A stretch of 11,106 nt of DNA. It comes from Treponema sp. GTDB lineage: Bacteria > Spirochaetota > Spirochaetia > Treponematales > Treponemataceae. Of this stretch, positions 1-11,106 are shown in pieces. The DNA lies in the NCBI GenBank assembly GCA_017617145.1, contig JAFZWX010000191.1, forward strand, positions 1 through 11,106. The letters are read 5' to 3'. Below the pieces are notes generated by a model, which did not search any database, had not been told where the DNA came from, and was given only the letters and a program-made list of their open reading frames with translations. The translations under genes and the position numbers were made by a program. Positions within the stretch are counted from its first letter, which is position 1, and every line of letters starts with the position of its first letter.

Positions 1-227
1 GTGATTGTGAATCCAGGTGGAACTGGAAGACTTAAAGGTTTCTTTGCCATCTGAGCAAGGTTAGCACCTTTACCACCGAGTTCAGCGCGCATTGACTCAT
101 CACCGTCTGCGTCGCCGTTACCAAAAAAGTAAACATACTTTTTAGCAGGTTTTGCTGCTGCTGTTTTTGCTGCAGGTTTAGCTGCTGCAGGCTTTGCTGC
201 CTGTTTTGTTGTTTCCTTTGTTGCCAT
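1..227 (-). CDS. ppdK: Pyruvate, phosphate dikinase, N-terminal fragment (runs off left edge)
   Basis: PPDK interconverts pyruvate, ATP and phosphate with PEP, AMP and pyrophosphate in the cytoplasm, at the PEP/pyruvate node of glycolysis. Only the first 75 codons are in the window. Residues 31-75 carry the family N-terminus: YVYFFGNG, then [11 protein letters not shown] (residues 50-60) and VPPGFTI (69-75), the start of the ATP-grasp nucleotide-binding domain. The start at 225-227 is supported by GGAG 8 nt upstream. Residues 1-30 are an unusual Ala/Lys/Pro-rich tail ([21 protein letters not shown]) that typical PPDKs lack. They start almost directly at the equivalent of Tyr31. A pyruvate-water dikinase-type relative is less likely because the [10 protein letters not shown] context matches PPDK better. 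The gene has its own promoter and is divergent from the chemoreceptor operon. Confidence 0.9.
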
Positions 228-275
228 TGATTTTACTCCATATTAAAAAAAATTTTTTTCGAGTTAAGTATTACT

Positions 276-304
276 ATAATAATGTTTTAAATTGATATGG
301 TCAA
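276..304 (-). promoter_or_regulatory. Sigma-70-type promoter of ppdK
   Basis: On the minus strand, TTGACC (304-299) is followed after exactly 17 bp by TATTAT (281-276). That predicts transcription starting near 269 and a leader of about 40 nt before the ppdK ATG. The -35 box is one half of the inverted repeat at 290-306, so a protein bound there could block this promoter. The call rests on hexamer matches and spacing only. Confidence 0.65.
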
Positions 305-306
305 TT
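290..306. promoter_or_regulatory. Perfect inverted repeat AATTGA-N5-TCAATT in the divergent promoter region
   Basis: Two perfect 6-bp half-sites, AATTGA (290-295) and TCAATT (301-306), are separated by TATGG. The repeat covers the ppdK -35 box. On the other strand it offers TTGATA (292-297), a possible -35 for the chemoreceptor operon, with TTTAAA 17 bp downstream. The position is typical of an operator serving two divergent genes. It does not resemble the known DtxR or MntR operators as I remember them, so the nearby DtxR-family protein is not an obvious ligand. Part of the symmetry could simply follow from two back-to-back -35 boxes. Confidence 0.4.
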
Positions 307-361
307 GTAGATTTTTTAAAGTAGATTTTTAATGTAGTTTTTTTAAAGTAGATTTTTTAAA
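307..361. repeat. Four tandem copies of a 14-bp AT-rich repeat
   Basis: The unit GTAGATTTTTTAAA occurs at 307-320, 321-333 (13 bp, ending AAT), 334-347 (one A-to-T change) and 348-361. Copies 1 and 4 are identical. The array fills the gap between the inverted repeat and the chemoreceptor start region. Each unit contains a TTTAAA or TTTAAT hexamer that could act as a weak -10 box. The T-tracts recur every 14 bp, which is not in phase with the helix. The array may be phase-variable in copy number by slippage. Confidence 0.85.
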
Positions 362-389
362 CAAAGTAATTTACAATTAAAGCAGATAA
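362..389 (+). promoter_or_regulatory. Possible sigma-28 (FliA-type) promoter of the chemoreceptor operon
   Basis: GCAGATAA (382-389) matches seven of eight positions of the flagellar/chemotaxis sigma-28 -10 element GCCGATAA. Twelve bases upstream, CAAAGTAA (362-369) matches TAAAGTTT at five of eight positions. A chemoreceptor is an expected member of this regulon. Against it, the transcript would start close to the Shine-Dalgarno sequence at 395-400 and leave a leader of only about 11 nt. A sigma-70 alternative is TTGATA (292-297) with TTTAAA (315-320). Confidence 0.35.
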
Positions 390-394
390 TCGTC

Positions 395-400
395 AAGGAG
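395..400 (+). promoter_or_regulatory. Ribosome binding site that selects the GTG start of the chemoreceptor
   Basis: AAGGAG at 395-400 directly abuts an ATG at 401, leaving no spacer. The in-frame GTG at 407 lies 6 nt downstream, an ideal distance. The GTG is therefore the likelier start, shortening the protein by two residues. Confidence 0.7.
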
Positions 401-406
401 ATGCTT

Positions 407-2476
407 GTGAAAATCAAATCTAAATTAATCATCAGTTATATTTCCATTGTTTTCTTTTCAATTATTGTTATTGCAGTTCCTGTTTTTATGTCGCAAATGA
501 AACAGCTGCAGACTTACATTGCAAAAAATTCTGAAGCACAGCTTACAATTGCAAAGGATTCAATTGATCTCTTTTTTGGAGAAGCTTCGGATATTGTGCG
601 AAGCGTTGAACCTTATATTAACTCAACCGATTTTAACCGCGAAAATGTAGAAAGCGATTTTCAAAAACTCATAGACAATAATCATACACTGGCATGTCTT
701 TACTTTATGGATCCTCTTCCTGGCTGGGAAGGAGGAACTGCTTATTCAAGTGACGGCTGGATTCCCGAAGAAGATTATGACAAAGAAACAAGAGACTGGT
801 ATATTGCCGGAAAAAATTCTTCAACCACAGAAATCACAGAGCCATACATTGATGAAGATACAAAAGACCTTGTTAGTTCTGTTGTTTATGGTATTCATTC
901 AAGAACCGGAGAATTGCTTGGAGTTGCCGGAATTGACATTCACCTTACCGAGCTTTCAGAAAAAATTGAAGCTATAAAAATTACAGAGCATGGACATTCT
1001 TTTATTATAAATGCAAATGGAGACTATCTTACAAATCCCGATATTAATAAAATTAATGCTGCAAATGTATTCAACGATTTTCCTGATGTTTCCCAATATA
1101 AAAATAAATCAAAAGATAATGTATTTGATATAAATTCCAGTAAACAGTATTACTTTATGTCAACAAAAATTAATGACAAAAACGACTGGTACTTTGTAAC
1201 AATAGGCGAAAAACGAGAGCTTATTCATATTCAGATGGTTCTTCAGATTATTCTTGTTATGGCTGTAATTACAATTGTTGTAGCAGCACTCATTTCTGTT
1301 TTATTTGCAAGAACTCTTGTAAAACCAATTAAGCAGGTAGATGAAACTGTAAACGAAATTGCAACAGGAAATGCCGACCTTACAAACCGACTTGAAATAA
1401 AAACTAAAGATGAAATTGGAAGTCTGGTAAAAGGCTTTAACATGTTCGTTCAAAAACTGCAGAGTATTGTTTATGAAATTCAAACTTCCAAAAATGATTT
1501 AAAACCTGTAGAAGAAGCGTTGACAGAAAGCGTTCAGGAAGCCGCAAGTGTAATTACAGAAATTCTTTCAAACATAGAAAGCATTGGCTCTCAAGTTCAG
1601 AATCAGTCAAATGCAGTTTCGCAAACTTCGGCTGCAGTACAGGAAATTGCAGAAAACATAAACAGCCTTGAAATGATGATTCAAAATCAGGCTAATGGAG
1701 TTTCAAATGCAAGTACTGCTGTAGAACAGATGATTGGAAATATAAATGCCGTAAACAGTTCTGTAGAAAAAATGGCAGAATCTTTTGGTCAGCTTGAAAA
1801 AAGTTCGGCAGAAGGTATTGACCAGCAGATGTTTGTTGACCGACAGATTATTGATGTTTCTGAACAGTCAATAGCACTTCAGGAAGCAAACGCTGCAATT
1901 TCTGCAATTGCCGAACAGACAAATCTTCTTGCCATGAACGCAGCAATTGAAGCAGCCCACGCCGGAGATTCTGGAAAAGGCTTTGCGGTTGTTGCAGATG
2001 AAATTCGTAAGCTTTCCGAAACTTCAACAGAACAGTCAAATAAAATTGGTGAAGAACTTAGTTTAATTTCTGAAACAATTAATAGAGTTGTTGAAGCTTC
2101 TGCAAGAAGTAAAGAAAGCTTTAAACAGGTTTCGGAACTTATTAATAATACAGACGAACTTGTTCATCAGATTAGCGGAGCAATGGAAGAGCAGCAGGTT
2201 GGTTCAAAGCAGATTCTCGATTCCCTGAAACTCATGAATGACAGCACGGCAGAAGTTAAAAATGCCGGTCTTGAAATGAAGGAAGGAAACAAACTTATTC
2301 TTAAAGAAATTACAAACCTTCAGGACACTACAACTGTTATTAAAGACAGCATGAACGAAATGTCTATTGGCGCCAAGAGCATGAATACAACAAGTGCTAC
2401 CCTTTCTGATTTGTCTGCAAAGGTACACTTGTCTATTCAAAAAATTGGCTACGAAATTGACCAGTTTAAAGTATAA
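407..2476 (+). CDS. Methyl-accepting chemotaxis protein with dCache_1 sensor domain
   Basis: Inner-membrane chemoreceptor of 689 residues (from the GTG start) that signals through CheW/CheA. Domain order: transmembrane helix 1 at about 6-29; periplasmic dCache_1 domain at about 35-270; transmembrane helix 2 at about 275-300; HAMP at about 301-355; then a long helical signalling domain with the conserved hairpin tip [20 protein letters not shown] at 501-520. The sensor carries Tyr124, Arg129, Trp131, Tyr132, Tyr147, Asp149 and Asp177. These match in order and spacing the amino-acid-recognition motif of dCache_1AA receptors such as PctA, so an L-amino acid or related amine ligand is predicted. 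No CheR-tethering pentapeptide is seen at the C-terminus, which ends IDQFKV. It is the first gene of an apparent four-gene unit, followed after 18 bp by a DtxR-family gene with no terminator between. Confidence 0.93.
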
Positions 2477-2494
2477 CAGATTAGAGGTAAAAAA

Positions 2495-2872
2495 ATGGTT
2501 ATTAGAGAATCTGCAGAAATGTATTTGGAAACTATTCTTGTTTTGTCAAAGGAAGGAACCGTGCGCTCTATTGATGTAGCAAAAGCACTTAATTTTTCCC
2601 GCCCATCTGTTAGCGTTACTCTTCATAATCTTGAAAAAGAAGGATACCTTTCTATTGCAGAAGATCAGACTGTTACACTTCTTGCAAAAGGCCTTGATAT
2701 TGCAAAAACAATTTACGAGCGCCATACAATTCTTACAGAATTTTTTGAGCAGCTTGGTGTAAAAAAAGTTATTGCCACTGCAGATGCCTGCAAAATTGAA
2801 CACGACATCAGTCCTGAATCTTTTAAAGCAATCAAAAAACTTGTAAAAAACAACAGAGCAGACGCTAAATGA
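2495..2872 (+). CDS. DtxR/MntR-family metal-dependent transcriptional regulator, short form
   Basis: A 125-residue cytoplasmic repressor-type protein. Residues 1-62 form the winged helix (SIDVAKALNFSRPSVSVTLHNL at 25-46 is the recognition region) and 65-120 the metal-binding dimerisation domain. The primary metal site aligns with Met9, Cys99, Glu102 and His103. Met and Cys at these places are the DtxR/IdeR (iron) pattern, whereas MntR has Asp and Glu. Glu12 and His77 match MntR numbering, but the ancillary Glu81 is replaced by Thr81, with Glu82 adjacent. The SH3-like third domain of DtxR is absent, as in MntR and treponemal TroR. AGAGG at 2483-2487 with a 7-nt spacer supports the start. Its stop overlaps the next start as ATGA, implying translational coupling. 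No adjacent metal transporter is present, so its target is unknown. Confidence 0.88.
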   Translation: MVIRESAEMYLETILVLSKEGTVRSIDVAKALNFSRPSVSVTLHNLEKEGYLSIAEDQTVTLLAKGLDIAKTIYERHTILTEFFEQLGVKKVIATADACKIEHDISPESFKAIKKLVKNNRADAK

Positions 2873-4374
2873 ACAAAGTTATTATGAAAAAGGGTTGCTG
2901 TGCTCTTGATTTGGGAGACGGCAGCGAACGTGGTTTTTATGTTAATCAGGATTATATTTTACACAAGCTCCATTCCATACATCGTGGAATAAGTCTTATG
3001 TACACTTATTATCCAAATGACAAGGAATGGCCTGTTCGTGCAAGTAAAATAAAAACGGACAAAGTAGCAACAGGCGCATGGGATTATCCTTACGAAGATT
3101 ATTTTCCTTATCGTGGTGGACGCGAAGGACTTCTTGATAATGAACCTTTTAATTTTATGAATGATATTCGCCGTCACGGGATGGATGTTGTCCTGACTCT
3201 TACAATTGATCCTTCATTAAAAGAAGCCGATATTCTGGAGCTTGCAAAAGACCTTCGCCCTTATGGACGAGTTCTTCTTAGAGTAAATCATGAATGTACA
3301 GGAAGCTGGTTCTGTTATACAAAGCGCGCTTCTTACCAGCAGATTGCAGACTTCTTTGTTATGGTATGCCGCGTTATGCATGAGCATGCTCCAAATGTAA
3401 AAATGATTTTATGTGCCGGCTTGTTTGACGACTCAACCGGTAAAATTGAAATGGAAGATATTTTTTTAGAAGCACATAAAGCAGCTGATATCTGGTCAGG
3501 GGATAATTATCTTTCGCTTCACTGGGGCTGGCCTTATGATATTGCAAAAAAACCTGGAACTTCCTTTGGAAATTTTGATACAGAAAAAACATATCAGAAA
3601 TTTAAAAAATCTGTTCTAAGACTACGTGAAATTACCGGACAAAACAAACCTATGGTTTTGAGCGAAATGAATGCGGACGGGGATGTAAATGGTCCCTACG
3701 ACCAGGCAAAAAAACTGCAGGATTTTATGGACCGGTTGGAAGCAGATCCAGACAAATGGCTCGATGCATTTACACTGTATCAATTCCGCGATGACGGACG
3801 ACTTGGACTTGAAGTAACAGATCCTAACAACAGCGAAGTTGGAATTGAACAGCCTATTTTAAAAAGCTATAGAGAAAGCCTGCACAAGCCGTTCTTCAGT
3901 AAAAAGTTTGAAGAAGCCGGAAGCATTGAGTTCCCTGTAAAACTGCGCTGGTCAAACTCAGAAGACGCCGAAGGTATTGAAATTAATGTACCGGTAGAAA
4001 AAGACCCTCACTTTGCAGAACTGTACTTTAAAGATGAGTTAGTTCAAGCTAACTTAATGATGGAGTTTGGCGGCTGGTGGTTCTACAAAGCTCCTGGAGT
4101 AAAATGCATTGATCTTATGAGTTACTTTTTCGAAAACAAAATTTCAAAACCTTGCATAATGAAGCTGCGTATTTTTGCACCGCCTGCTGATGGAAAAAAC
4201 CATCCTCTTGGAAAGGACGGGCTTTCAGATTTAAGTATTAACGGAGCAACCCTGCGCACGCTACCAGACGGGGAATGGATAAACAATTACTATGCACAAA
4301 TTAACTCGCTGCCAGAACTCCGAATAGAATATGAACCTGTTGTAGGAGCCGATGATGAATATAAATTTGACTAA
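2869..4374 (+). CDS. GH26-like TIM-barrel glycoside hydrolase (possible beta-mannanase type)
   Basis: A 501-residue protein, probably a clan GH-A endo- or exo-glycosidase. The barrel spans about 20-340. Beta-strand 4 reads VLLRVNHECTGSWF (135-148), with candidate acid/base Glu142 preceded by His141 as in GH26. Strand 7 reads PMVLSEMN (261-268), with candidate nucleophile Glu266. These are the expected positions of a retaining glycosidase. Residues 345-501 form a beta-rich domain of unknown kind, perhaps carbohydrate binding (FGGWWFYKAPG). No signal peptide or lipobox is visible, so it should act in the cytoplasm on imported oligosaccharides, unless the true N-terminus is different. The ATG overlaps the upstream stop and the Shine-Dalgarno match is poor, consistent with coupled translation; Met6 is an alternative start. 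The next gene is a CE2 esterase, suggesting acetylated mannan-type substrates. Another GH-A family is possible; assignment to GH26 is by motif only. Confidence 0.6.
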   Translation: MNKVIMKKGCCALDLGDGSERGFYVNQDYILHKLHSIHRGISLMYTYYPNDKEWPVRASKIKTDKVATGAWDYPYEDYFPYRGGREGLLDNEPFNFMNDIRRHGMDVVLTLTIDPSLKEADILELAKDLRPYGRVLLRVNHECTGSWFCYTKRASYQQIADFFVMVCRVMHEHAPNVKMILCAGLFDDSTGKIEMEDIFLEAHKAADIWSGDNYLSLHWGWPYDIAKKPGTSFGNFDTEKTYQKFKKSVLRLREITGQNKPMVLSEMNADGDVNGPYDQAKKLQDFMDRLEADPDKWLDAFTLYQFRDDGRLGLEVTDPNNSEVGIEQPILKSYRESLHKPFFSKKFEEAGSIEFPVKLRWSNSEDAEGIEINVPVEKDPHFAELYFKDELVQANLMMEFGGWWFYKAPGVKCIDLMSYFFENKISKPCIMKLRIFAPPADGKNHPLGKDGLSDLSINGATLRTLPDGEWINNYYAQINSLPELRIEYEPVVGADDEYKFD

Positions 4375-5515
4375 ACTAAAATGGTATGGACGAAACTTTG
4401 AACACGAAGGTATTCGTTATTTTAATTATTCGTGCAGCGGCTTTGAATTCTGTATGACAGGTAAAAAAGCAGTTGCCACAATTTTGAGTGATCCAAACAA
4501 ACAGAAAAAAACTGAACGCGGTGTAATTGGAATTTATGTTACAGAAATTACAGATACTTCAAAATATAAGGGTACCGGCTTCTGGGAAAACTTTCCTCCC
4601 GAAGGCGTTGAACCAGTGCGTATAGAACTTACAAAACAGGAAAATGAATGTGTACTTTTTGAAAGTCCTGTTGAAAAAACGGTTGTTATTAAAGTGCTTA
4701 AGTTGAGCGAATGTGCGTTTGGATATGCAGGACTAAAAAGGCTGGATATAAAAGGAGTGCCTGCATATGCGGCCCTTCGACAAGCTCAGGGAGTCGGTCG
4801 CTCCGCGACCTTACCAAGTTTGCAAAGCAAACTTGCGGCGGCATCTCCTAAGATTGAATTTATCGGCGACAGCATAACCTGTGGATACGGGCTTGAAGGT
4901 ATTTGGGAAAAAGACACGTTTACCACGACACAGGAACGTCCGGACAAGGCCTACGCATTTTTAACAGCACGTGCACTTGGTGCAGAATTCCAGCTTTGCT
5001 CCTGGAGTGGTATTGGCATTACTTCAAACTACGTAGACCCGGCAACAATATTTCTTCCAGAAACAAGCTGGCTCATGCCTGCCTGCTGGCCTTATACAGA
5101 CAAGCGCGGACAACTCAGACTCAAGCTTGAACCAGAGATTTGGGATTCTTCAAAATTTCCTCCAGATATTGTTGTAATAAATCTTGGAACAAACGATATA
5201 AGCTGGGTACGTGGTCTTGAAGAAAGACGACTTGCCTACGTAGCAGGCCTTCGTCAGTTAATAGAAGCAGTTCATCGCAGAAGCCCAGATGCAAAAATCT
5301 GCTGCTGTTTAGGTATAATGGGACAGGAACTTTGTAAATCGGTGAGTGAAGCATGCAGACTTTTTTCAAAGGATTTCCCAAGCGTACCTGTAAAGACTGT
5401 GAGGTTTGACTTACAAAAGGAAGAAGACGGAATTGGAGCAGACTGGCATCCATCGCCTGTTACTCATAAAAAGGCTGCAAAGAAATTGACTGCAGCACTT
5501 AAGGAATGGTGTTAA
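4355..5515 (+). CDS. CE2-type acetyl (oligo)saccharide esterase: jelly-roll plus SGNH hydrolase
   Basis: A 386-residue carbohydrate esterase that would remove O-acetyl groups from sugars. An N-terminal beta-sandwich (about 1-135) precedes an SGNH/GDSL domain (about 165-386), the CE2 order. The catalytic blocks are GDSIT (nucleophile Ser173), WSG (217-219), GTND (oxyanion Asn280) and DWHPS (Asp363, His365). No signal peptide is visible, so it probably works with the preceding glycosidase in the cytoplasm. It overlaps that gene by about 20 bp. AGGAG at 4344-4348 sits 6 nt from the ATG at 4355 and only 3 nt from the ATG at 4352, so 4355 is chosen. Residues 140-161, between the two domains, are encoded by three palindromes that look like an in-frame repeat insertion. 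The reading frame stays open and all catalytic motifs are intact, so the enzyme is probably functional. Confidence 0.88.
   Translation: MNINLTKLKWYGRNFEHEGIRYFNYSCSGFEFCMTGKKAVATILSDPNKQKKTERGVIGIYVTEITDTSKYKGTGFWENFPPEGVEPVRIELTKQENECVLFESPVEKTVVIKVLKLSECAFGYAGLKRLDIKGVPAYAALRQAQGVGRSATLPSLQSKLAAASPKIEFIGDSITCGYGLEGIWEKDTFTTTQERPDKAYAFLTARALGAEFQLCSWSGIGITSNYVDPATIFLPETSWLMPACWPYTDKRGQLRLKLEPEIWDSSKFPPDIVVINLGTNDISWVRGLEERRLAYVAGLRQLIEAVHRRSPDAKICCCLGIMGQELCKSVSEACRLFSKDFPSVPVKTVRFDLQKEEDGIGADWHPSPVTHKKAAKKLTAALKEWC
4773..4835. repeat. Cluster of three palindromes inserted in frame in the CE2 gene
   Basis: Three adjacent dyads: CCCTTCGACAAGCTCAGGG (4773-4791, imperfect); GGTCGC-TCC-GCGACC (4796-4810, perfect 6-bp stem); CAAGTTTGC-AAA-GCAAACTTG (4815-4835, perfect 9-bp stem). 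The span is 63 bp, a multiple of three, more GC-rich than its surroundings, and it encodes a low-complexity linker. The first motif is one I recall as a dispersed palindromic repeat in many bacterial genomes. Exact insertion boundaries cannot be fixed from one sequence. Confidence 0.7.
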
Positions 5516-5516
5516 G

Positions 5517-5575
5517 AGATTATCGGGTCAAGCCCGATAATGACAGTGTCATTGCCGTGCTTGACACGGCAATCT
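5517..5575. repeat. Inverted pair of 29-nt hairpin repeats (REP/BIME-like), CE2-argA junction
   Basis: Unit 1 (5517-5545) and unit 2 (5547-5575, opposite orientation) are separated by one base. Read in the same direction, each is AG, a 9-nt arm beginning ATT, loop TCAAG, the exactly complementary arm, then GACA. The arms are ATTATCGGG in unit 1 and ATTGCCGTG in unit 2. Unit 1 begins two bases after the CE2 stop codon (5513-5515). Unit 2 overlaps the 3' end of argA. There is no T-tract on either strand, so it is not a classical terminator, but the hairpins could protect or end both convergent transcripts. Confidence 0.85.
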
Positions 5576-6844
5576 ATAAACCTTAGATCCTCTTTCCGGC
5601 GACCACTTAGCACGACGCTCTTCAGGAATGCTTTCAATCTTATCTTCTGAAAATCCTATTTTTTCAAACCAGTCGCTTGCCTGAGTCGTCATTATAAAAA
5701 TAGATTTTGCTTCACAAGACTTAGCTTTTGCAACAAGCCCTTCTACAAGCTTTGGTCCGATTCCCATATGATTGTATGCTTCATCAACTGCCACAGCGGC
5801 AATTTCAAACTGTCCGTCATCATATTTATGAAGAGCGGCACACGCTCGAACTCCGCCGTCAAAATCGTAAACATAAAAATCTTCAAGGCGGGCTGCAACA
5901 TCACCTTCTGTACGAGGGAGCAGTTTTCCGTTTGCAACAAATGGACGCATTACAGCAAGAACACTCGGAATATCTGTCTGTTCCATTGAGCGGATTTTTC
6001 CATAGTTATTTGTATAAATCATTGTGCCCGAACCAAGATCACTGAAGATTTCTGTAAGCAGTACGCCATCCAGATTTCCATCAAGAAGATGCGAACGATT
6101 AACTCCATTCTGACAGGCACTTTTACAAAGCTCAAGAAGATTTTTTGTCTGTTCGTTATCGGCATGACTGGTAACATAAGAATCAACTTCTTCAATATTC
6201 ATTGCAGGAACAATTTCCCCATCCTTTAAAATTGGATTAGGCTCACCCATTACAAAAAAGAGCTTGTCTGCTTTTAGTTCAACTGCAACCTGCTGAGCAA
6301 GAACTGCAGAAGAAATATTATATGGTTTACCAACAGAGCTCCAGCCAATACAAGGAAAAATAGGAATAAAGCCGTCATCCAGAACTGTACGCAGAGAGAC
6401 TGTATCAAGTTTGTCAATTTCTCCAGCTGCACCAAAATCAAAACCATTAATCACACCTTTTGCACGCGAACGAACCCAGTTACCAATTACGGCAGTAATA
6501 TTATTTGCGGCAAGATTTGTCATAACAGTGTTACTTACATCAAAAGCGGCCATTTTTATAAAAGGCATTGCCTCATCATTTGTAATGCGGATATTGTCTT
6601 TATAAGTCCAGTTGAGTTTTGCAGAAGAAAGAACTTCGTCAATTCGAGTACGAGCACCAGGAATAATTACAACCTTAAGTCCTGCTTTATGCAAAAGAGC
6701 AATATCGCGGATATGCGAACTGAACAAAGAAGAACCAATTGTTTTGTCATCTAAGTAAATGACGATGAGAGCATTCTTAAACTTTTGCAAATAGCGGATT
6801 ACGTCACGAACGTTTTCGGCTTTTTTATTTGTACTTTGCATCAT
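5549..6844 (-). CDS. argA: N-acetylglutamate synthase (amino-acid N-acetyltransferase)
   Basis: Catalyses acetyl-CoA plus L-glutamate to N-acetylglutamate, the first step of arginine biosynthesis, in the cytoplasm. It is 431 residues, close to the classical bacterial ArgA length of about 440. Residues 20-265 form the amino-acid-kinase-like, arginine-sensing domain (VVIIPGARTRID at 58-69). Residues 285-431 form the GNAT domain, with the acetyl-CoA loop NHMGIGPKLVEGL (358-370) and WFEKIGF (392-398). The first ATG (6844) has AAGG 10 nt upstream; a second ATG follows directly. It is last in a minus-strand unit, 15 nt below the GH18 gene, but also has a possible promoter of its own. Its last eight residues, RLPCQARQ, and its stop codon are encoded by a hairpin repeat, so the native C-terminus appears to have been replaced. 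Arginine feedback sensitivity is expected from the domain layout but cannot be read from sequence. Confidence 0.93.
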   Translation of the reverse strand: MMQSTNKKAENVRDVIRYLQKFKNALIVIYLDDKTIGSSLFSSHIRDIALLHKAGLKVVIIPGARTRIDEVLSSAKLNWTYKDNIRITNDEAMPFIKMAAFDVSNTVMTNLAANNITAVIGNWVRSRAKGVINGFDFGAAGEIDKLDTVSLRTVLDDGFIPIFPCIGWSSVGKPYNISSAVLAQQVAVELKADKLFFVMGEPNPILKDGEIVPAMNIEEVDSYVTSHADNEQTKNLLELCKSACQNGVNRSHLLDGNLDGVLLTEIFSDLGSGTMIYTNNYGKIRSMEQTDIPSVLAVMRPFVANGKLLPRTEGDVAARLEDFYVYDFDGGVRACAALHKYDDGQFEIAAVAVDEAYNHMGIGPKLVEGLVAKAKSCEAKSIFIMTTQASDWFEKIGFSEDKIESIPEERRAKWSPERGSKVYRLPCQARQ

Positions 6845-6848
6845 AATG

Positions 6849-6877
6849 ATTATACCTTTTTATTTTTTAATTTCCAA
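6849..6877 (-). promoter_or_regulatory. argA: Possible internal promoter of argA, nearly leaderless
   Basis: On the minus strand, TTGGAA (6877-6872) is followed after 17 bp by a perfect TATAAT (6854-6849). The box ends 4 nt before the argA ATG, so a transcript would start at or just inside the start codon. It lies over the stop codon of the GH18 gene. AT-rich sequence gives such matches by chance, so this is tentative. Confidence 0.3.
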
Positions 6878-7984
6878 CCAGTTCCAGAATTCGGGATCTT
6901 CCTGGCCAACTCGCCAAAAGCCTATTTTCTTTACACCTGCTTCCTGATACATTCTCAACAGAGCAACATCGGACCAGGCATCATTAAAATATCCTGTTAC
7001 GTCTACCTGTGTTGTGTACTGCACCTTTGGAATATCCTTTTCATAAGTGATTTCTTCAACACCGTTTGCAATCATCATTCTGTTCAGACGCGAAAAATAA
7101 TAAGCACCCGAGGTTGCCTGTTCTGCCCAAAAACGCCCGTAAAAAGGTATGCCCATAATGAGTTTTTTTTCGGGAATTGCTTTTTGTGCATACTCCAAAA
7201 CCTTCTGGCACCAGTCAACAGAAGCAACCGGTCCTGGAACGCTACTAGACCAGTGTTCATCGTATGCCATAACAAAAACACGATCGCTGTAATTTGCAAT
7301 ATCGGAATATGGATATACATCTTCTGTAAGACGCTTAAAACGAGCCGGCACACAAACTGTAAACCATTTAGCCTGTCCTAACATATATCGCAAGTCGGCA
7401 AGAAATGTCAAAAAATGCTTACGGTCGCGGGTTGGAACAAGTTCAAAATCTATCTGAACTCCATCATAAGCAGCGGCTGCTTTTACAATCGATTTTAACA
7501 AAGTCTTTCGAACACCGTATTCAGGATCAATCACAAAATGAGTAAGAGAACGACTGTCACATGTAATAACAAGATGGCAGCGTGCTTTCCCAGTTTTCAA
7601 TTTAGAACGAACAGGTATAGCCGAAAGCTCGCCATAACAATTTATTTCCGCCGAAAAATAACAGACATCAGTAATTGGAAGGCTTGGATCATATTCATCC
7701 TCGCGTCCCTGACTCACATAACCCCAGGTTTCTGCAAATGCAACAGGCTTTCCTTCTACAGGCCGAAGTGTATATAACTGAACCGGTTCTTTTTCTGCAA
7801 TATCATCAGATAACGCTTCTGCATCTTCTGAAAATTCCAGCAACTCTGCTCCATCCTCTATGCTCTCAGAGGTAACCGGCTCACTTGAAATTTCAATATC
7901 ACCCTTCCCTTTTGCAAAAATCAGAGAACAAAAAAGAAATATAGTAAAGACGGATAAAGTCCGTTTAGTGATAATCTTAATCAT
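6860..7984 (-). CDS. Exported GH18 (YaaH-like) glycosidase
   Basis: A 374-residue protein. Residues 1-24 are a signal peptide (basic start, hydrophobic core, ending LIFA), and 25-70 an acidic low-complexity linker. The GH18 barrel runs from about 80 to 374. The catalytic motif is DGVQIDFE (174-181) with acid Glu181 and Asp179; MAYDEHW (239-245) and GFWRVGQEDPEFW (355-367) follow the family pattern. The DG-Q-ID-E form resembles YaaH/SleL-type GH18 proteins that act on peptidoglycan or GlcNAc polymers rather than classical chitinases, but the substrate is not certain. Cys19 lies in the hydrophobic core without a convincing lipobox, so secretion or a periplasmic location is favoured over a lipoprotein. 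The start has no clear Shine-Dalgarno sequence. The gene lies 20 nt below the cysteine-cluster gene and 15 nt above argA. Confidence 0.85.
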   Translation of the reverse strand: MIKIITKRTLSVFTIFLFCSLIFAKGKGDIEISSEPVTSESIEDGAELLEFSEDAEALSDDIAEKEPVQLYTLRPVEGKPVAFAETWGYVSQGREDEYDPSLPITDVCYFSAEINCYGELSAIPVRSKLKTGKARCHLVITCDSRSLTHFVIDPEYGVRKTLLKSIVKAAAAYDGVQIDFELVPTRDRKHFLTFLADLRYMLGQAKWFTVCVPARFKRLTEDVYPYSDIANYSDRVFVMAYDEHWSSSVPGPVASVDWCQKVLEYAQKAIPEKKLIMGIPFYGRFWAEQATSGAYYFSRLNRMMIANGVEEITYEKDIPKVQYTTQVDVTGYFNDAWSDVALLRMYQEAGVKKIGFWRVGQEDPEFWNWLEIKK

Positions 7985-8004
7985 AAAATAATTATCGGAA
8001 GATT

Positions 8005-8505
8005 TTACCTGCTATAAACAATATCAGACAAAAAATCGGTGCTTTCTTTAATAATATCAGGATGTTCTTTAGCGTAATCAATTATTTTCTGACCAAGCCC
8101 CGATTCCAAAAGTAATCTTATTTTTTCTCGTGCAACTTTATTTACGGCAGGACAAGTTGGAGTAAGAGCAACTGCAATTTCTTTTTGCTTTATATAAACG
8201 GCACGAAAAGGCCAGATACTGCAATCAAAAGGTTTTAATTCAAGCGGCAAAATACAGCCTTTTGATGTATCAAGAAATGGACAAGGGGCTTCTTCTTCAG
8301 GATTATCAGTTGTATAGCAATCCGAAAGTTCTACTGTCATGCTGCTGTTTCCAACTGAACGAAATTTAACATCCGGAAAAATTGACTTTAATTGTTCCGC
8401 TGAATCTTTTGTAAAAACCGGAGTTTCCCATAAACTCTGACGACGAAAAGAGCAGCAAAATTTGCAGGAAGCACAATCACTTTTTTTTAGTATCGATGAT
8501 AACAC
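8005..8505 (-). CDS. YkgJ-family cysteine-cluster protein
   Basis: A 166-residue protein of the YkgJ/UPF0153 type (putative zinc or iron-sulfur binding; biochemical role unknown). It has nine cysteines: CxxCxxCC at 11-18, then Cys63, Cys75, Cys84, Cys95 and Cys118. The segments CPFL, GCILPLELKPFDCSIWPF and TCPA are the family hallmarks. No signal peptide or membrane segment is seen. The start is a GTG (8505-8503) with GGAG 8 nt upstream, located inside the last codons of the DUF2156 gene; only 5 nt separate that stop from this start, so translation is probably coupled. Its tight link with DUF2156 suggests a shared process, which cannot be named from sequence. Confidence 0.85.
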   Translation of the reverse strand: MLSSILKKSDCASCKFCCSFRRQSLWETPVFTKDSAEQLKSIFPDVKFRSVGNSSMTVELSDCYTTDNPEEEAPCPFLDTSKGCILPLELKPFDCSIWPFRAVYIKQKEIAVALTPTCPAVNKVAREKIRLLLESGLGQKIIDYAKEHPDIIKESTDFLSDIVYSR

Positions 8506-8510
8506 AACAA

Positions 8511-9449
8511 TTACTCCACTAAGCCATAAAATTTTTCAAGTATAAGTGTTGGCTTATAAGATAGTTTTGCTTTACGAAGTCCTTCTACTCCCATATCTTC
8601 TTCGCGGTTAAGATACAAATAACTTCCATTCCGTTTTGAAAACTGTTGATTTATTACAGCATAAACTCCATTCTTCTCATATTCTTCAATTGCTTTTTCA
8701 TAAATCACATCAAGTACAGAATCCGAAATTGGCGAAGCAAGCGTCATAGCAGCAGGTTCTCCTTTTACATAAAGAACGCCTCCTGTAAACCTAAGAAGCT
8801 CTGCATTTTTTAGGGCAAGTTCTATACTCTGTAGTTCAAGCTTAAGTACAGGTTTTTCATCTCCATTTTTTTCGTTGTACCATTTTTGCGAAATAGAAAG
8901 AATGTCGGCAGATACATCATTTTGTGGAAAAGACTTAAACTCCCAGTCATCACCATAAATACGATTAAAGCGCGACACATGATTTCGTTTTTTCTGATAA
9001 TTGGAACCAGATAACTCTGCAAGATTTTTTTGAAGATAAATATAATCGCAATCCTCTCGATTTGTTTTCCACGCAACTCGTTTATTAAAATATTTTAAAA
9101 GACATTCATCAATCAAATCTTTCTGATCCCGTGTAATAAGACAAAATGAAAGTTCACGCTGTTGTTTTTTAGCATCCGCAAAAATAAATTCAAGAGCAGA
9201 TTTTAACCAGCTGGAATTGAGGTTCTGCGAATCCTTTGAATCCGACTCTTTTCTTAAAGGAACAGGAAATCCATAACCGGTACGATTTTCATCACCATAA
9301 TAATAGCGGAACAAAGTATTGTTTTGGATTTTAAGCCATGTATTATATTTTTCCTGCAGCAAAAAAAGATTCGCTATGCAAATGTCACTTCCATACAGGC
9401 CGTGGGTATCCAGATTATTTTCAAGATACTCAAAATCAAGCAGATTCAT
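8511..9449 (-). CDS. DUF2156 protein (GNAT-fold, LPG-synthase C-domain-like)
   Basis: A 312-residue soluble protein resembling PF09924, the catalytic domain family of phosphatidylglycerol lysyltransferases (MprF C-domain) and related aminoacyl transferases. Hallmarks are DYIYLQKNLAELSG (135-148) followed by YQKKRNHVSRF (151-161), and the C-terminal NREEDMGVEGLRKAKLSYKP (281-300). There are no membrane helices, so unlike MprF it is a stand-alone domain and its substrate is unknown. It is the first gene of a minus-strand unit with YkgJ, GH18 and argA. No Shine-Dalgarno sequence precedes the ATG at 9449, and a candidate promoter lies directly upstream. Confidence 0.82.
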   Translation of the reverse strand: MNLLDFEYLENNLDTHGLYGSDICIANLFLLQEKYNTWLKIQNNTLFRYYYGDENRTGYGFPVPLRKESDSKDSQNLNSSWLKSALEFIFADAKKQQRELSFCLITRDQKDLIDECLLKYFNKRVAWKTNREDCDYIYLQKNLAELSGSNYQKKRNHVSRFNRIYGDDWEFKSFPQNDVSADILSISQKWYNEKNGDEKPVLKLELQSIELALKNAELLRFTGGVLYVKGEPAAMTLASPISDSVLDVIYEKAIEEYEKNGVYAVINQQFSKRNGSYLYLNREEDMGVEGLRKAKLSYKPTLILEKFYGLVE

Positions 9450-9457
9450 ATAGTTTA

Positions 9458-9486
9458 AATTTACAAAAACCGTGAGGTTATTTCAA
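9458..9486 (-). promoter_or_regulatory. Candidate promoter of the DUF2156 operon
   Basis: On the minus strand TTGAAA (9486-9481), 17 bp, then TAAATT (9463-9458), ending 8 nt before the ATG. That would give an almost leaderless mRNA, consistent with the missing Shine-Dalgarno sequence. An alternative further upstream is TTGAAC (9537-9532), 19 bp, CATAAT (9512-9507). Neither can be preferred with confidence. Confidence 0.35.
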
Positions 9487-9569
9487 GTAAAAAAATCTAT
9501 GATTATATTATGATTCTGCAAAAACCTGTCTGTTCAAGCGAATTTTTAATTTATAGGGAAAATCCTTTA

Positions 9570-9597
9570 TTGATAAATTGAAAAAATACTATAAAAT
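9570..9597 (+). promoter_or_regulatory. Promoter of the GH43 gene
   Basis: TTGATA (9570-9575), 16 bp, TAAAAT (9592-9597); each hexamer matches the sigma-70 consensus at five of six positions. Transcription would start near 9604, giving a leader of about 45 nt. The rest of the 200-bp divergent region (9450-9649) shows no gene or longer repeat. Confidence 0.55.
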
Positions 9598-9618
9598 AAG
9601 AAAATGTAATATTAATCA

Positions 9619-9643
9619 AAGGCCAGGTGGCCTTCCTTAGGAG
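9619..9643 (+). promoter_or_regulatory. Leader hairpin plus ribosome binding site of the GH43 gene
   Basis: A perfect stem AAGGCC (9619-9624) / GGCCTT (9629-9634) with loop AGGT lies 4 nt before the strong Shine-Dalgarno AGGAG (9639-9643), which has a 6-nt spacer to the ATG at 9650. The hairpin near the 5' end of the predicted transcript could stabilise the mRNA or affect ribosome access. Confidence 0.5.
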
Positions 9644-9649
9644 TAATTT

Positions 9650-10618
9650 ATGATTGAAAGAAGACCTCTTGTAAACGATCTTTATACAGCAGACCCTTCT
9701 GCACATGTTTTTAATGGAAAAATCTATATCTATCCTTCACATGATGAAGACATTGATGTTGAAAGCAACGATAACGGCGATCAGTATGATATGAAAGACT
9801 ATCATGTCTACGAAATGAAAGACACCGAAACATATCCACGCGACTGTGGTTGTGTTTTTACACTTGATGATGTTAAATGGGCAAGCAAGCAGCTTTGGGC
9901 TCCGGATTGTGTTGAACGAAATGGAAAATATTATTTCTTCTTCCCTGCCCGCGACAAAACAGGAATGTTCAGAGTTGGTGTAGCTGTTGGCGACAAACCA
10001 GAAGGCCCATTCAAACCGGAAGACGACTACATACAGGGAACCTACAGTATTGACCCATGCTGTTTCCCTGATACAGACGGAAATTATTATTTGACCTTCG
10101 GCGGACTCTGGGGCGGACAACTTGACCAGTACCGCAACAACAAATGGAGTGCCGACAACAAGGAACCACGCGAAGAAGAAGCCTGCACACCAAAAATTGC
10201 TTTGATGAAAGAAAACATGACAGAGCTTGCAGAAGAGCCACGCGACCTTGTAATTGTTGATGAAAACGGCAAACCTTTAATTGGAAAAGATGAAGACCGC
10301 CGCTATTTTGAAGACCCATGGCTCTTTAAGAAAGGTGACACTTATTACTTTACATATTCAACAGGAACAACCCACTTTTTGAACTGGGCAACAAGCAAGA
10401 ATGTTTACGGTCCATACACCTTTGGCGGAAAGATTCTTACTCCAGTCCTTGGATGGACAACACACCACTCAATTCTTGAGTTCAACGGAAAATGGTATTT
10501 GTTCTACCACGACTGCGAACGTTCAAATGGTGTAAATCAGAAGAGAAATGTTAAGTTCCGTGAGTTGACATTTAATCCGGATGGATCTATTAAGACTATG
10601 GATGGAATGGAGTGGTAA
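9650..10618 (+). CDS. GH43 beta-propeller glycosidase (beta-xylosidase/arabinofuranosidase type)
   Basis: A 322-residue inverting glycosidase made of a single five-bladed propeller, the usual length for a GH43 catalytic domain with no extra module. The catalytic triad is visible as general base Asp15 (ADPSAHVFNGKIY, 14-26), pKa-modulating Asp135 (SIDP, 133-136) and acid Glu221 (FEDPWLF, 220-226). His273 in THHS is the probable metal-coordinating residue. No signal peptide is present: the protein starts directly with the first blade (MIERRPLVNDLYTADP). It therefore should act in the cytoplasm on imported xylo- or arabino-oligosaccharides. Exact specificity cannot be read from the motifs. It has its own promoter and leader, and ends at a repeat-derived terminator shared with the convergent GH94 gene. 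Confidence 0.9.
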   Translation: MIERRPLVNDLYTADPSAHVFNGKIYIYPSHDEDIDVESNDNGDQYDMKDYHVYEMKDTETYPRDCGCVFTLDDVKWASKQLWAPDCVERNGKYYFFFPARDKTGMFRVGVAVGDKPEGPFKPEDDYIQGTYSIDPCCFPDTDGNYYLTFGGLWGGQLDQYRNNKWSADNKEPREEEACTPKIALMKENMTELAEEPRDLVIVDENGKPLIGKDEDRRYFEDPWLFKKGDTYYFTYSTGTTHFLNWATSKNVYGPYTFGGKILTPVLGWTTHHSILEFNGKWYLFYHDCERSNGVNQKRNVKFRELTFNPDGSIKTMDGMEW

Positions 10619-10621
10619 GAT

Positions 10622-10726
10622 AGATTGTCGGGTCAAGCCCGACAATGACAAGTGTAAACGCGACAATGACAAGTGTAAACGCGACAATGACAAACTGTGT
10701 CATTCCCCGGCTTGACCGGGGAATCT
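10622..10726. repeat. Second inverted pair of 29-nt hairpin repeats, GH43-GH94 junction
   Basis: Unit 3 (10622-10650) and unit 4 (10698-10726, opposite orientation) belong to the same family as those at 5517-5575: AG, arm, TCAAG, complementary arm, GACA. Arms read in the same direction are ATTGTCGGG (unit 3) and ATTCCCCGG (unit 4), each with an exact complement. Here the pair is pushed 47 bp apart by a 21-bp tandem repeat. Confidence 0.87.
10640..10692. repeat. 21-bp tandem repeat, about 2.5 copies, inside the hairpin pair
   Basis: CGACAATGACA (10640-10650, the tail of unit 3) plus AGTGTAAACG (10651-10660) is repeated exactly at 10661-10681. It is followed by a third CGACAATGACA at 10682-10692. 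Because the repeated piece includes the right end of unit 3, the array probably grew by slippage or partial duplication after the element arrived. Confidence 0.88.
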
Positions 10727-10732
10727 TTTTTT
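10702..10732 (+). terminator. Rho-independent terminator of the GH43 gene, formed by repeat unit 4
   Basis: Stem ATTCCCCGG (10702-10710) / CCGGGGAAT (10716-10724), loop CTTGA, then C and seven Ts (10726-10732). It lies 84 nt after the GH43 stop. On the minus strand there is no U-tract after the hairpin, so it is a strong terminator only for the plus strand. The last Ts overlap the stop codon of the GH94 gene. Confidence 0.75.
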
Positions 10733-11106
10733 AACCTAATGTAATTTCTACATTAAATTCCTTCTTTCCTTCTACATATGGAACAACACAGCCTTCAACT
10801 GCTTTGCCGTCTACGAGCATTGACTTTACGCCCTTGCAAACGTGGCTTGGGTTTTTGATTGTGATGTTGTATTTAGCACCGCGGAAGAGACGTGTTGCTG
10901 TAAAGCCATCCCAGGCAGCTGGAATTGAAGGGTCAACTTTAAGACCGTCAAAGTCTGGCTGAATTCCAAGAATGTACTGGCTTATTGCAACCATGTTCCA
11001 GGCAGCAGTTCCTGTAAGCCATGAGTTTTTACCCTGACCAAAGTTCTTGCCTGTCTGACCGATGTCTGAACCTGCATCTTTACCGCCAATCATCTGGCCG
11101 TAAACA
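10731..11106 (-). CDS. GH94 cellobiose-phosphorylase-like protein, C-terminal fragment (runs off right edge)
   Basis: About 125 C-terminal residues of a GH94 phosphorylase, which splits beta-glucosides (cellobiose or related disaccharides) with phosphate to sugar-1-phosphate plus sugar in the cytoplasm. The visible part opens with [12 protein letters not shown] and continues with the family signature [32 protein letters not shown] and [14 protein letters not shown]. It belongs to the end of the (alpha/alpha)6 barrel and the C-terminal beta-sandwich. The catalytic aspartate lies outside the window, so cellobiose cannot be separated from chitobiose, cellodextrin or mannosyl-glucose relatives. 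The ORF continues beyond the internal Met at 11093 to the window edge. It is convergent with GH43. Confidence 0.88.

Follow-up and report, generated by a model that had tools for sequence, protein, structure and literature searches.

Some genomes of Treponema contain an abundant and well-structured family of hairpin repeats, termed here TGTC hairpins after their terminal tag. We describe it starting from a window of 11,106 nt of Treponema sp. DNA (assembly GCA_017617145.1, contig JAFZWX010000191.1, positions 1–11,106, forward strand), which holds four units. These repeats are probably non-autonomous, fast-turnover repetitive extragenic palindromes (REPs) of the CGTC/TGTC class, moved by some enzyme and tolerated behind stop codons, some of them probably acting as bidirectional terminators. 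Each unit has a TGTC tag at one end, then a 9-bp stem closed by a 5-nt loop, and at the other end a CT tail leading into T-rich sequence. On this model such palindromes would spread through the genome, turn over quickly and persist mainly at the least harmful places, as a rule in the gap from a stop codon to the next feature. Over half of the elements are inverted pairs, with partners that, in the well-formed pairs of our sample, are never identical. Pairs with their tags inside, when placed between convergent genes, would probably double as intrinsic terminators working in both directions or as the 3' ends of mRNAs, because each hairpin has a T-rich tail facing outward.

Read in one direction, all four units of the window follow the pattern AG-ATTnnnnnn-TCAAG-nnnnnnAAT-GACA (29 nt, 9-bp stems), and the arms are fully Watson-Crick paired in 4/4. 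The core pattern ATTN6TCAAGN6AATGACA has four matches in the window and none in 200 dinucleotide-preserving shuffles, which confirms the four positions (Table 1) and the common tag and loop reported in a first-pass annotation of this DNA. The units form two inverted pairs, both with tags (GACA/TGTC) facing inward and both between convergent genes, with gaps of 1 nt in pair 1 and 47 nt in pair 2. No Rfam match above the curated threshold was found in the window.

The differences between stems are compensated, as had been noticed from the four units. A pairing-blind pattern search of 1.53 Mb of the related genomes G002–G004 plus the window retrieved 145 units; in 131 of these, all six variable pairs are Watson-Crick. 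On average 5.85 of 6 are paired, compared with 4.51 after random reassignment of right arms (the largest of 2000 shuffles reached 4.79). Counted by distinct arm types, 13 of 23 are fully paired in this set. Among the genus-sample matches listed (see below), 27 of 57 hand-copied arm types are fully paired, with a mean pairing of 5.16 vs. 3.15 for shuffled arms (largest shuffle 3.60). When the loop was left free, a scan gave 184 matches, of which 149 combine TCAAG with an inner stem of 7 bp; each control tag gave 4–27. The tail is CT (94–100%) plus a variable base and then a T-rich stretch in all element classes. Arms change mostly as whole arm types; at the orthologous junction of G003:C60 and G004:C2, both partners differ and pairing is kept. 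Replacement by copying accounts for the stem changes no less well than compensation in single steps.

Genome-wide counts refer to relatives, the source genome being represented by the window alone. A protein search yielded 12 related genomes, all titled Treponema. The exact pattern, which fixes the loop, tag and outer stem and hence undercounts variant units, has 60, 94, 185, 145, and 33 copies in G001–G005, respectively, two in G008, one in G010, and none in the remaining five. With the pattern reversed as a control, none of the 12 genomes had a match. In the genus to which G003 belongs, 196 sampled genomes were scanned: 105 contain at least one copy, 45 at least 10, and 27 at least 30 (hereinafter copy-rich), with a maximum of 206, the control giving two matches in total. 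In a phylum-wide sample, 17 of 247 genomes match, 10 of these belonging to the genus sample; outside the latter, more than one copy is found only in G219 (32) and G242 (7). A scarcity of further copies, which would speak against a family, was not seen: relatives hold tens to hundreds of them. Together with the compensated stems, these copies support the first-pass view of a family resembling REPs and bacterial interspersed mosaic elements (BIMEs). Same-strand units in tandem arrays, regularly spaced by 112 and 122 bases, were observed in G013:C1 (67995–68245 and 160625–161017).

The organization of units into elements was analyzed in 2.2 Mb of G002–G004 plus the window with a relaxed scan, which requires four or more of the seven inner pairs and is therefore biased toward paired units. 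The 275 units found form 176 elements: 81 single, 92 two-unit, and 3 larger. All 92 two-unit elements are inverted, 58 with tags inside and 34 with tags outside, so that the inverted arrangement seen in the window is general for two-unit elements; the suggestion that units always come in inverted pairs fails for the 81 single units and for two head-to-tail neighbors. The spacers of tags-outside pairs, including tails, measure 10 nt (5 pairs) or 14–16 nt (22 pairs). For tags-inside pairs the scan values of -2 to 56 correspond to 0–58 nt between tags, since the scanned unit extends one base past the tag.

Paired units are unlike each other. Identical partners occur in 0 of 73 perfect-stem inverted pairs, where 18.7 were expected and the minimum in 20000 shuffles of arms among pairs was 8, pairs from related species being not fully independent. 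Like partners, judged by the left arm, are present in an imperfect mosaic array in G003:C78. In other species, all 31 nearby inverted pairs hand-picked among the matches listed are unlike, which is not independent proof, because only 1.55 identical pairs were expected (P(0) = 0.18). Folding was considered as a reason for this rule in 68 of the 73 pairs (five with long spacers were left out; the use of DNA parameters is unconfirmed). Identical-partner controls form one long hairpin with mean energies of -38.8 and -39.4 kcal/mol, vs. -25.1 and -23.2 kcal/mol for the real pairs. The explanation was rejected, as only 25 of the 68 real pairs form two separate hairpins at minimum energy. As RNA, window pair 1 favors one long hairpin (-27.3, vs. 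-24 for the two-hairpin centroid). Compared with shuffled sequence, the two window pairs fold more stably on either strand (z from -3.4 to -4.9).

Pair orientation goes with gene context, as determined with gene calls from a simple custom caller rather than a standard program. Tags-inside pairs lie in 22 convergent, 31 tandem, and 2 divergent junctions, with one intragenic and two at edges. For tags-outside pairs the respective numbers are 2, 24, and 4 (three intragenic, one at an edge), and for single units 18, 41, and 11 (10 intragenic, one at an edge). The convergent share of tags-inside pairs (22/55) exceeds both that of tags-outside pairs (2/30; p = 0.0009) and that of background junctions (236/1727; p = 2e-6); in a smaller first set it was 13/34 vs. 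0/16. The initial impression that the pairs always sit at convergent gene ends thus holds for the two window pairs and not for the family, whose elements are more common between tandem than between convergent genes.

Most pairs also abut stop codons. Among the stop-side gaps of tags-inside pairs, 65 of 75 fall within -30 to 8 nt, 44 of the gaps placing the stop exactly 0, 3, or 6 nt ahead of ATT; for tags-outside pairs, these numbers are 22 of 28 and 5. At convergent junctions the tags-inside pair mostly spans the stop-to-stop space to within a few bases, and because this space is filled, the pair is the obvious terminator candidate there. Termination is predicted as likely at convergent sites and putative elsewhere. 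Of 14 terminator-like sites in the window, where shuffled sequence leads one to expect 9.5, unit 4 together with the following CTTTTTTT is listed first; units 1–3 are absent from the list. By its sequence unit 4 looks like an intrinsic terminator, a GC hairpin running directly into a T tract.

Occupancy of these junctions changes between species. For 79 of the 176 elements, an orthologous junction could be placed in another genome, and its content was classified by pattern matching. In 42 comparisons of tags-inside pairs, the other genome has another repeat in 18, nothing in 10, an unclassified segment in 7, and the same family in 7 (2 with the same arms). In 24 comparisons of tags-outside pairs, the respective numbers are 2, 8, 7, and 7 (4 with the same arms). 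Hence, the same pair is kept in only 6 of 66 comparisons. Replacement by another repeat distinguishes the two orientations (18/42 vs. 2/24, p = 0.005), these comparisons being not independent, since some elements were compared with several genomes and some comparisons were made from both sides. Strong folding is seen in several unclassified segments, and the comparison of the window with L004, scored as "nothing", shows a remnant.

The junction of pair 1 illustrates the exchange. It is occupied by an ACAAG-loop pair in locus L001 and by a CGTC-ATTGCGAG pair in L002 and L003; L005 has nothing, and L004 has a chimera of both units, the expected product of an internal deletion. In the window, unit 1 starts 1 nt past the TAA of gene 4352–5515, and unit 2 encodes the end of the minus-strand gene 5549–6844, namely, the six C-terminal residues PCQARQ and the TGA stop. 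The equivalent gene in L001–L003 ends in ...YRLK* rather than PCQARQ, and the DNA ahead of this differing end is also AGATT, five bases common with the repeat edge. Other chimeras, in which the left arm ATTGTCGGG runs directly into another repeat (CACCCTTCGACAGGCTCAGGG), were noted at G003:C86 (~74705) and G002:C3 (~16402).

It might be argued that the hairpins are ordinary bidirectional terminators, immobile, kept by selection and altered by stepwise compensatory mutation. The convergent enrichment and filled junctions, the T-rich tails with the terminator-like unit 4, and the other hairpin repeats that take the same place in 18 of the 42 tags-inside comparisons would all fit this explanation. 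We nevertheless regard it as unlikely for four reasons. Firstly, the tag, loop, and CT tail are fixed, though termination does not need them. Secondly, 81 single units and 34 tags-outside pairs exist, many of them in tandem junctions. Thirdly, orthologous junctions are empty in 10/42 and 8/24 comparisons for the two pair orientations. Finally, genomes of a single genus sample hold anywhere between 0 and 206 copies.

Among known systems, the closest match is the superfamily of CGTC-tagged REPs (Di Nocera, De Gregorio, Rocco, 2013; PMC3733652), which includes dRS3 of Neisseria and RPE-4/RPE-6 of Rickettsia conorii. According to the parts of that article describing the class, its members have the tag CGTC or the variants TGTC and CCTC, a stem of 8–9 bp starting with AT, a loop of 4–5 nt, and a 3-nt unpaired tail that in most cases fits CCA. 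Dimers with tags outside (HH) predominate and those with tags inside (TT) are rare, which is given as typical and not stated as defining. The same parts report unlike partners with "no obvious explanation", no transposase, and hosts including Spirochaetes. The Treponema units agree in the TGTC variant of the tag (4/4 window units and all 145 units, the search pattern itself requiring it), the 9-bp ATT.../...AAT stem, and the 5-nt loop TCAAG. They agree further in forming inverted dimers, often of unlike units, mainly downstream of genes, with spacers more uniform in tags-outside than in tags-inside pairs, and in lacking an associated transposase (judged in Treponema by the Y1 family and by co-occurrence of IS110 and reverse transcriptase). 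As far as the text description of the class allows comparison, the family belongs to the CGTC/TGTC-tagged REPs and is itself new. No paper on it was found in the open-licence literature, judged by sequence strings and titles; Treponema is not named in the part of PMC6006769 available to us.

We infer that some enzyme moves these repeats, and the first-pass annotation had proposed REP-associated tyrosine transposases (RAYT, TnpA-REP), which move REP/BIME elements. Like the GTAG REPs and BIMEs of Escherichia and Pseudomonas, the Treponema units are tagged hairpins in inverted unlike pairs, extragenic and downstream of genes, and RAYT-size genes do exist in the genus. The tag, however, is TGTC rather than GTAG, and no link to RAYT was found. 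The Y1 transposase domain (PF01797) is absent from G001–G005, 3 of the 12 relatives having one. In the genus sample, which includes many metagenome bins that may lack some genes, it is present in 61 of 196 genomes, and RAYT-size genes (a size class of our choosing) in 21, the largest copy count among these being 19. RAYT-size genes occur in 0 of 27 copy-rich vs. 21 of 169 other genomes (Fisher p = 0.085), and any Y1 gene in 5/27 vs. 56/169 (p = 0.18).

Because the former p-value is only 0.085, the case against RAYT rests also on the loci themselves. The TGTC hairpin unit is found in 0 of 49 Y1 loci of the genus (145 kb) and likewise in none of L043–L047, so that the proposed search for a Y1/RAYT gene flanked by the same hairpin found none. 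Instead, 15 of 17 RAYT loci displayed (L197–L216, by eye) carry GGGACAGACC/GGTCTGTCCC-like repeats near the gene. In this they resemble the "TIRtrons", described in the available part of PMC3733652 as RAYT genes with terminal inverted repeats of the consensus GGGGWSAS. The likeness concerns RAYT-size genes of the same genus; the TIRtron repeat is separate from the TGTC unit. Overall, RAYT appears a highly unlikely mover of this family.

Elements of the IS110 type, which use a bridge RNA, might carry or spread the hairpins, or use them as landing sites; insertion of IS elements into REPs has reportedly been published (PMC1525189). PF01548 is present in 14 of 27 copy-rich vs. 4 of 27 zero-copy genomes (p = 0.008; 13 vs. 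4 over the cut-off, p = 0.018), the zero-copy genomes being hand-picked and kinship uncontrolled, and it is lacking in 13 of the 27 copy-rich genomes. One subfamily with a 418-aa open frame (L232, L238, and L239 in G152, G032, and G093) has a unit within ~130 nt 3' of the gene. All unit-bearing loci belong to this subfamily, however, and two are at the same site. Among the 20 loci inspected, 15 have neither a unit nor a half-unit, one has a left half-motif only, and one (L243) has enlarged hairpins on both sides; a single genome contributes 10 of the loci, which are mostly near-identical to each other. The link is a weak lead rather than a finding, and IS110 as the source of the spread is quite unlikely. 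At L243 in G017, the unit-like hairpin on both sides of the IS110 gene has an enlarged loop (ATTGCCGGA...TCCGGCAAT-GACA).

The transposase families covered were thus Y1, in genomes and loci, and IS110 and reverse transcriptase by co-occurrence, with 20 loci for IS110. Reverse transcriptase was rejected as a mover (10/27 copy-rich vs. 8/27 zero-copy genomes, no link). Also rejected was an orientation linked to the replichore, the signature of single-strand insertion, as the full list for G152 mixes both strands. Neighboring elements less than 4 kb apart (28 pairs) enclose 47 called genes, inspected by length and first 70 residues. Those recognized, e.g., dnaK, dnaJ, and leucyl-tRNA synthetase, we take to be host genes; the sole similarity between non-orthologues among the 47 is one pair in G003:C78.

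Several observations weigh against the interpretation of the family as mobile CGTC-class REPs, some doubling as terminators. No new insertion was observed, and gain and loss are indistinguishable in most junction comparisons. The tail is CTN plus a T-rich stretch, not CCA, and tags-inside pairs outnumber tags-outside ones (58 vs. 34), both features departing from what is typical of the class. Copying of one founder pair class, to which 57 of the 73 perfect pairs belong, could also yield unlike partners, and two separate hairpins are the minimum-energy structure in only the minority of pairs given above. As for termination, tandem genes flank 31 of the 55 tags-inside pairs, and with the next start a median of 21 nt away, strong termination is disfavored at these sites; the T content of tails shows no difference between convergent and tandem sites (p = 0.29).

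The coordinates of the units and adjacent genes are given in Table 1. The tandem array occupies most of the 47-nt spacer of pair 2.

Table 1. TGTC hairpin units and neighboring features in the window.
Feature	Position	Strand	Description
Unit 1 of pair 1	5517..5545	+	AG tail, stem ATTATCGGG/CCCGATAAT, loop TCAAG, tag GACA
Unit 2 of pair 1	5547..5575	-	Stem ATTGCCGTG/CACGGCAAT
Unit 3, first of pair 2	10622..10650	+	Stem ATTGTCGGG/CCCGACAAT, loop TCAAG, tag GACA
21-bp tandem array	10640..10693	.	2.6 copies of CGACAATGACAAGTGTAAACG; end of unit 3 right arm and tag, plus filler
Unit 4, second of pair 2	10698..10726	-	Stem ATTCCCCGG/CCGGGGAAT, followed by CTTTTTTT on the + strand
CE2/GDSL-type esterase gene	4352..5515	+	Upstream of pair 1
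Amino-acid kinase + GNAT gene	5549..6844	-	N-acetylglutamate-synthase-like; converges on pair 1
GH43 gene	9650..10618	+	Upstream of pair 2
GH94-like gene	10731..11105	-	3' part, extends past window end; converges on pair 2

Two further kinds of repeats were seen in the window. An CCCTTCGACAAGCTCAGGG-type repeat lies in frame within the CE2/GDSL esterase gene (~4770–4860, ALRQAQG...), in a linker that is variable among L001, L002, and L003 and short in L004 and L005. AT-rich tandem repeats with periods of 13, 14, and 27 are located at 306–361, upstream of a chemotaxis-receptor gene.

A bolder and rather doubtful possibility is that stop-codon junctions are docking sites for interchangeable palindromic cassettes, including TGTC/TCAAG pairs, CGTC-ATTGCGAG pairs, ACAAG-loop pairs, and CCCTTCGACAAGCTCAGGG repeats. 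Such cassettes would be exchanged as obligate unlike pairs by a non-RAYT recombinase, conceivably an RNA-guided one of the IS110 type, with orientation deciding between an end of transcription and a quiet stay within an operon.

Two questions about CGTC REPs were left open in PMC3733652, namely, what moves them and why unlike units are the usual partners in their pairs. On the first, our data argue against the default suspect, RAYT; on the second, the unlike-partner rule is now quantified (0/73). That count is new, as are the tags-inside pairs abutting stop codons and the finding that in related species the equivalent junction is often empty or taken by a different repeat. The unlike-partner rule, the dependence of orientation on gene context, and the rapid exchange at stop codons appear worth following. 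With 0 to 206 copies in its sampled genomes, this genus offers a natural experiment on the spread of CGTC REPs, in which a comparison of complete genomes could help to find the mover.

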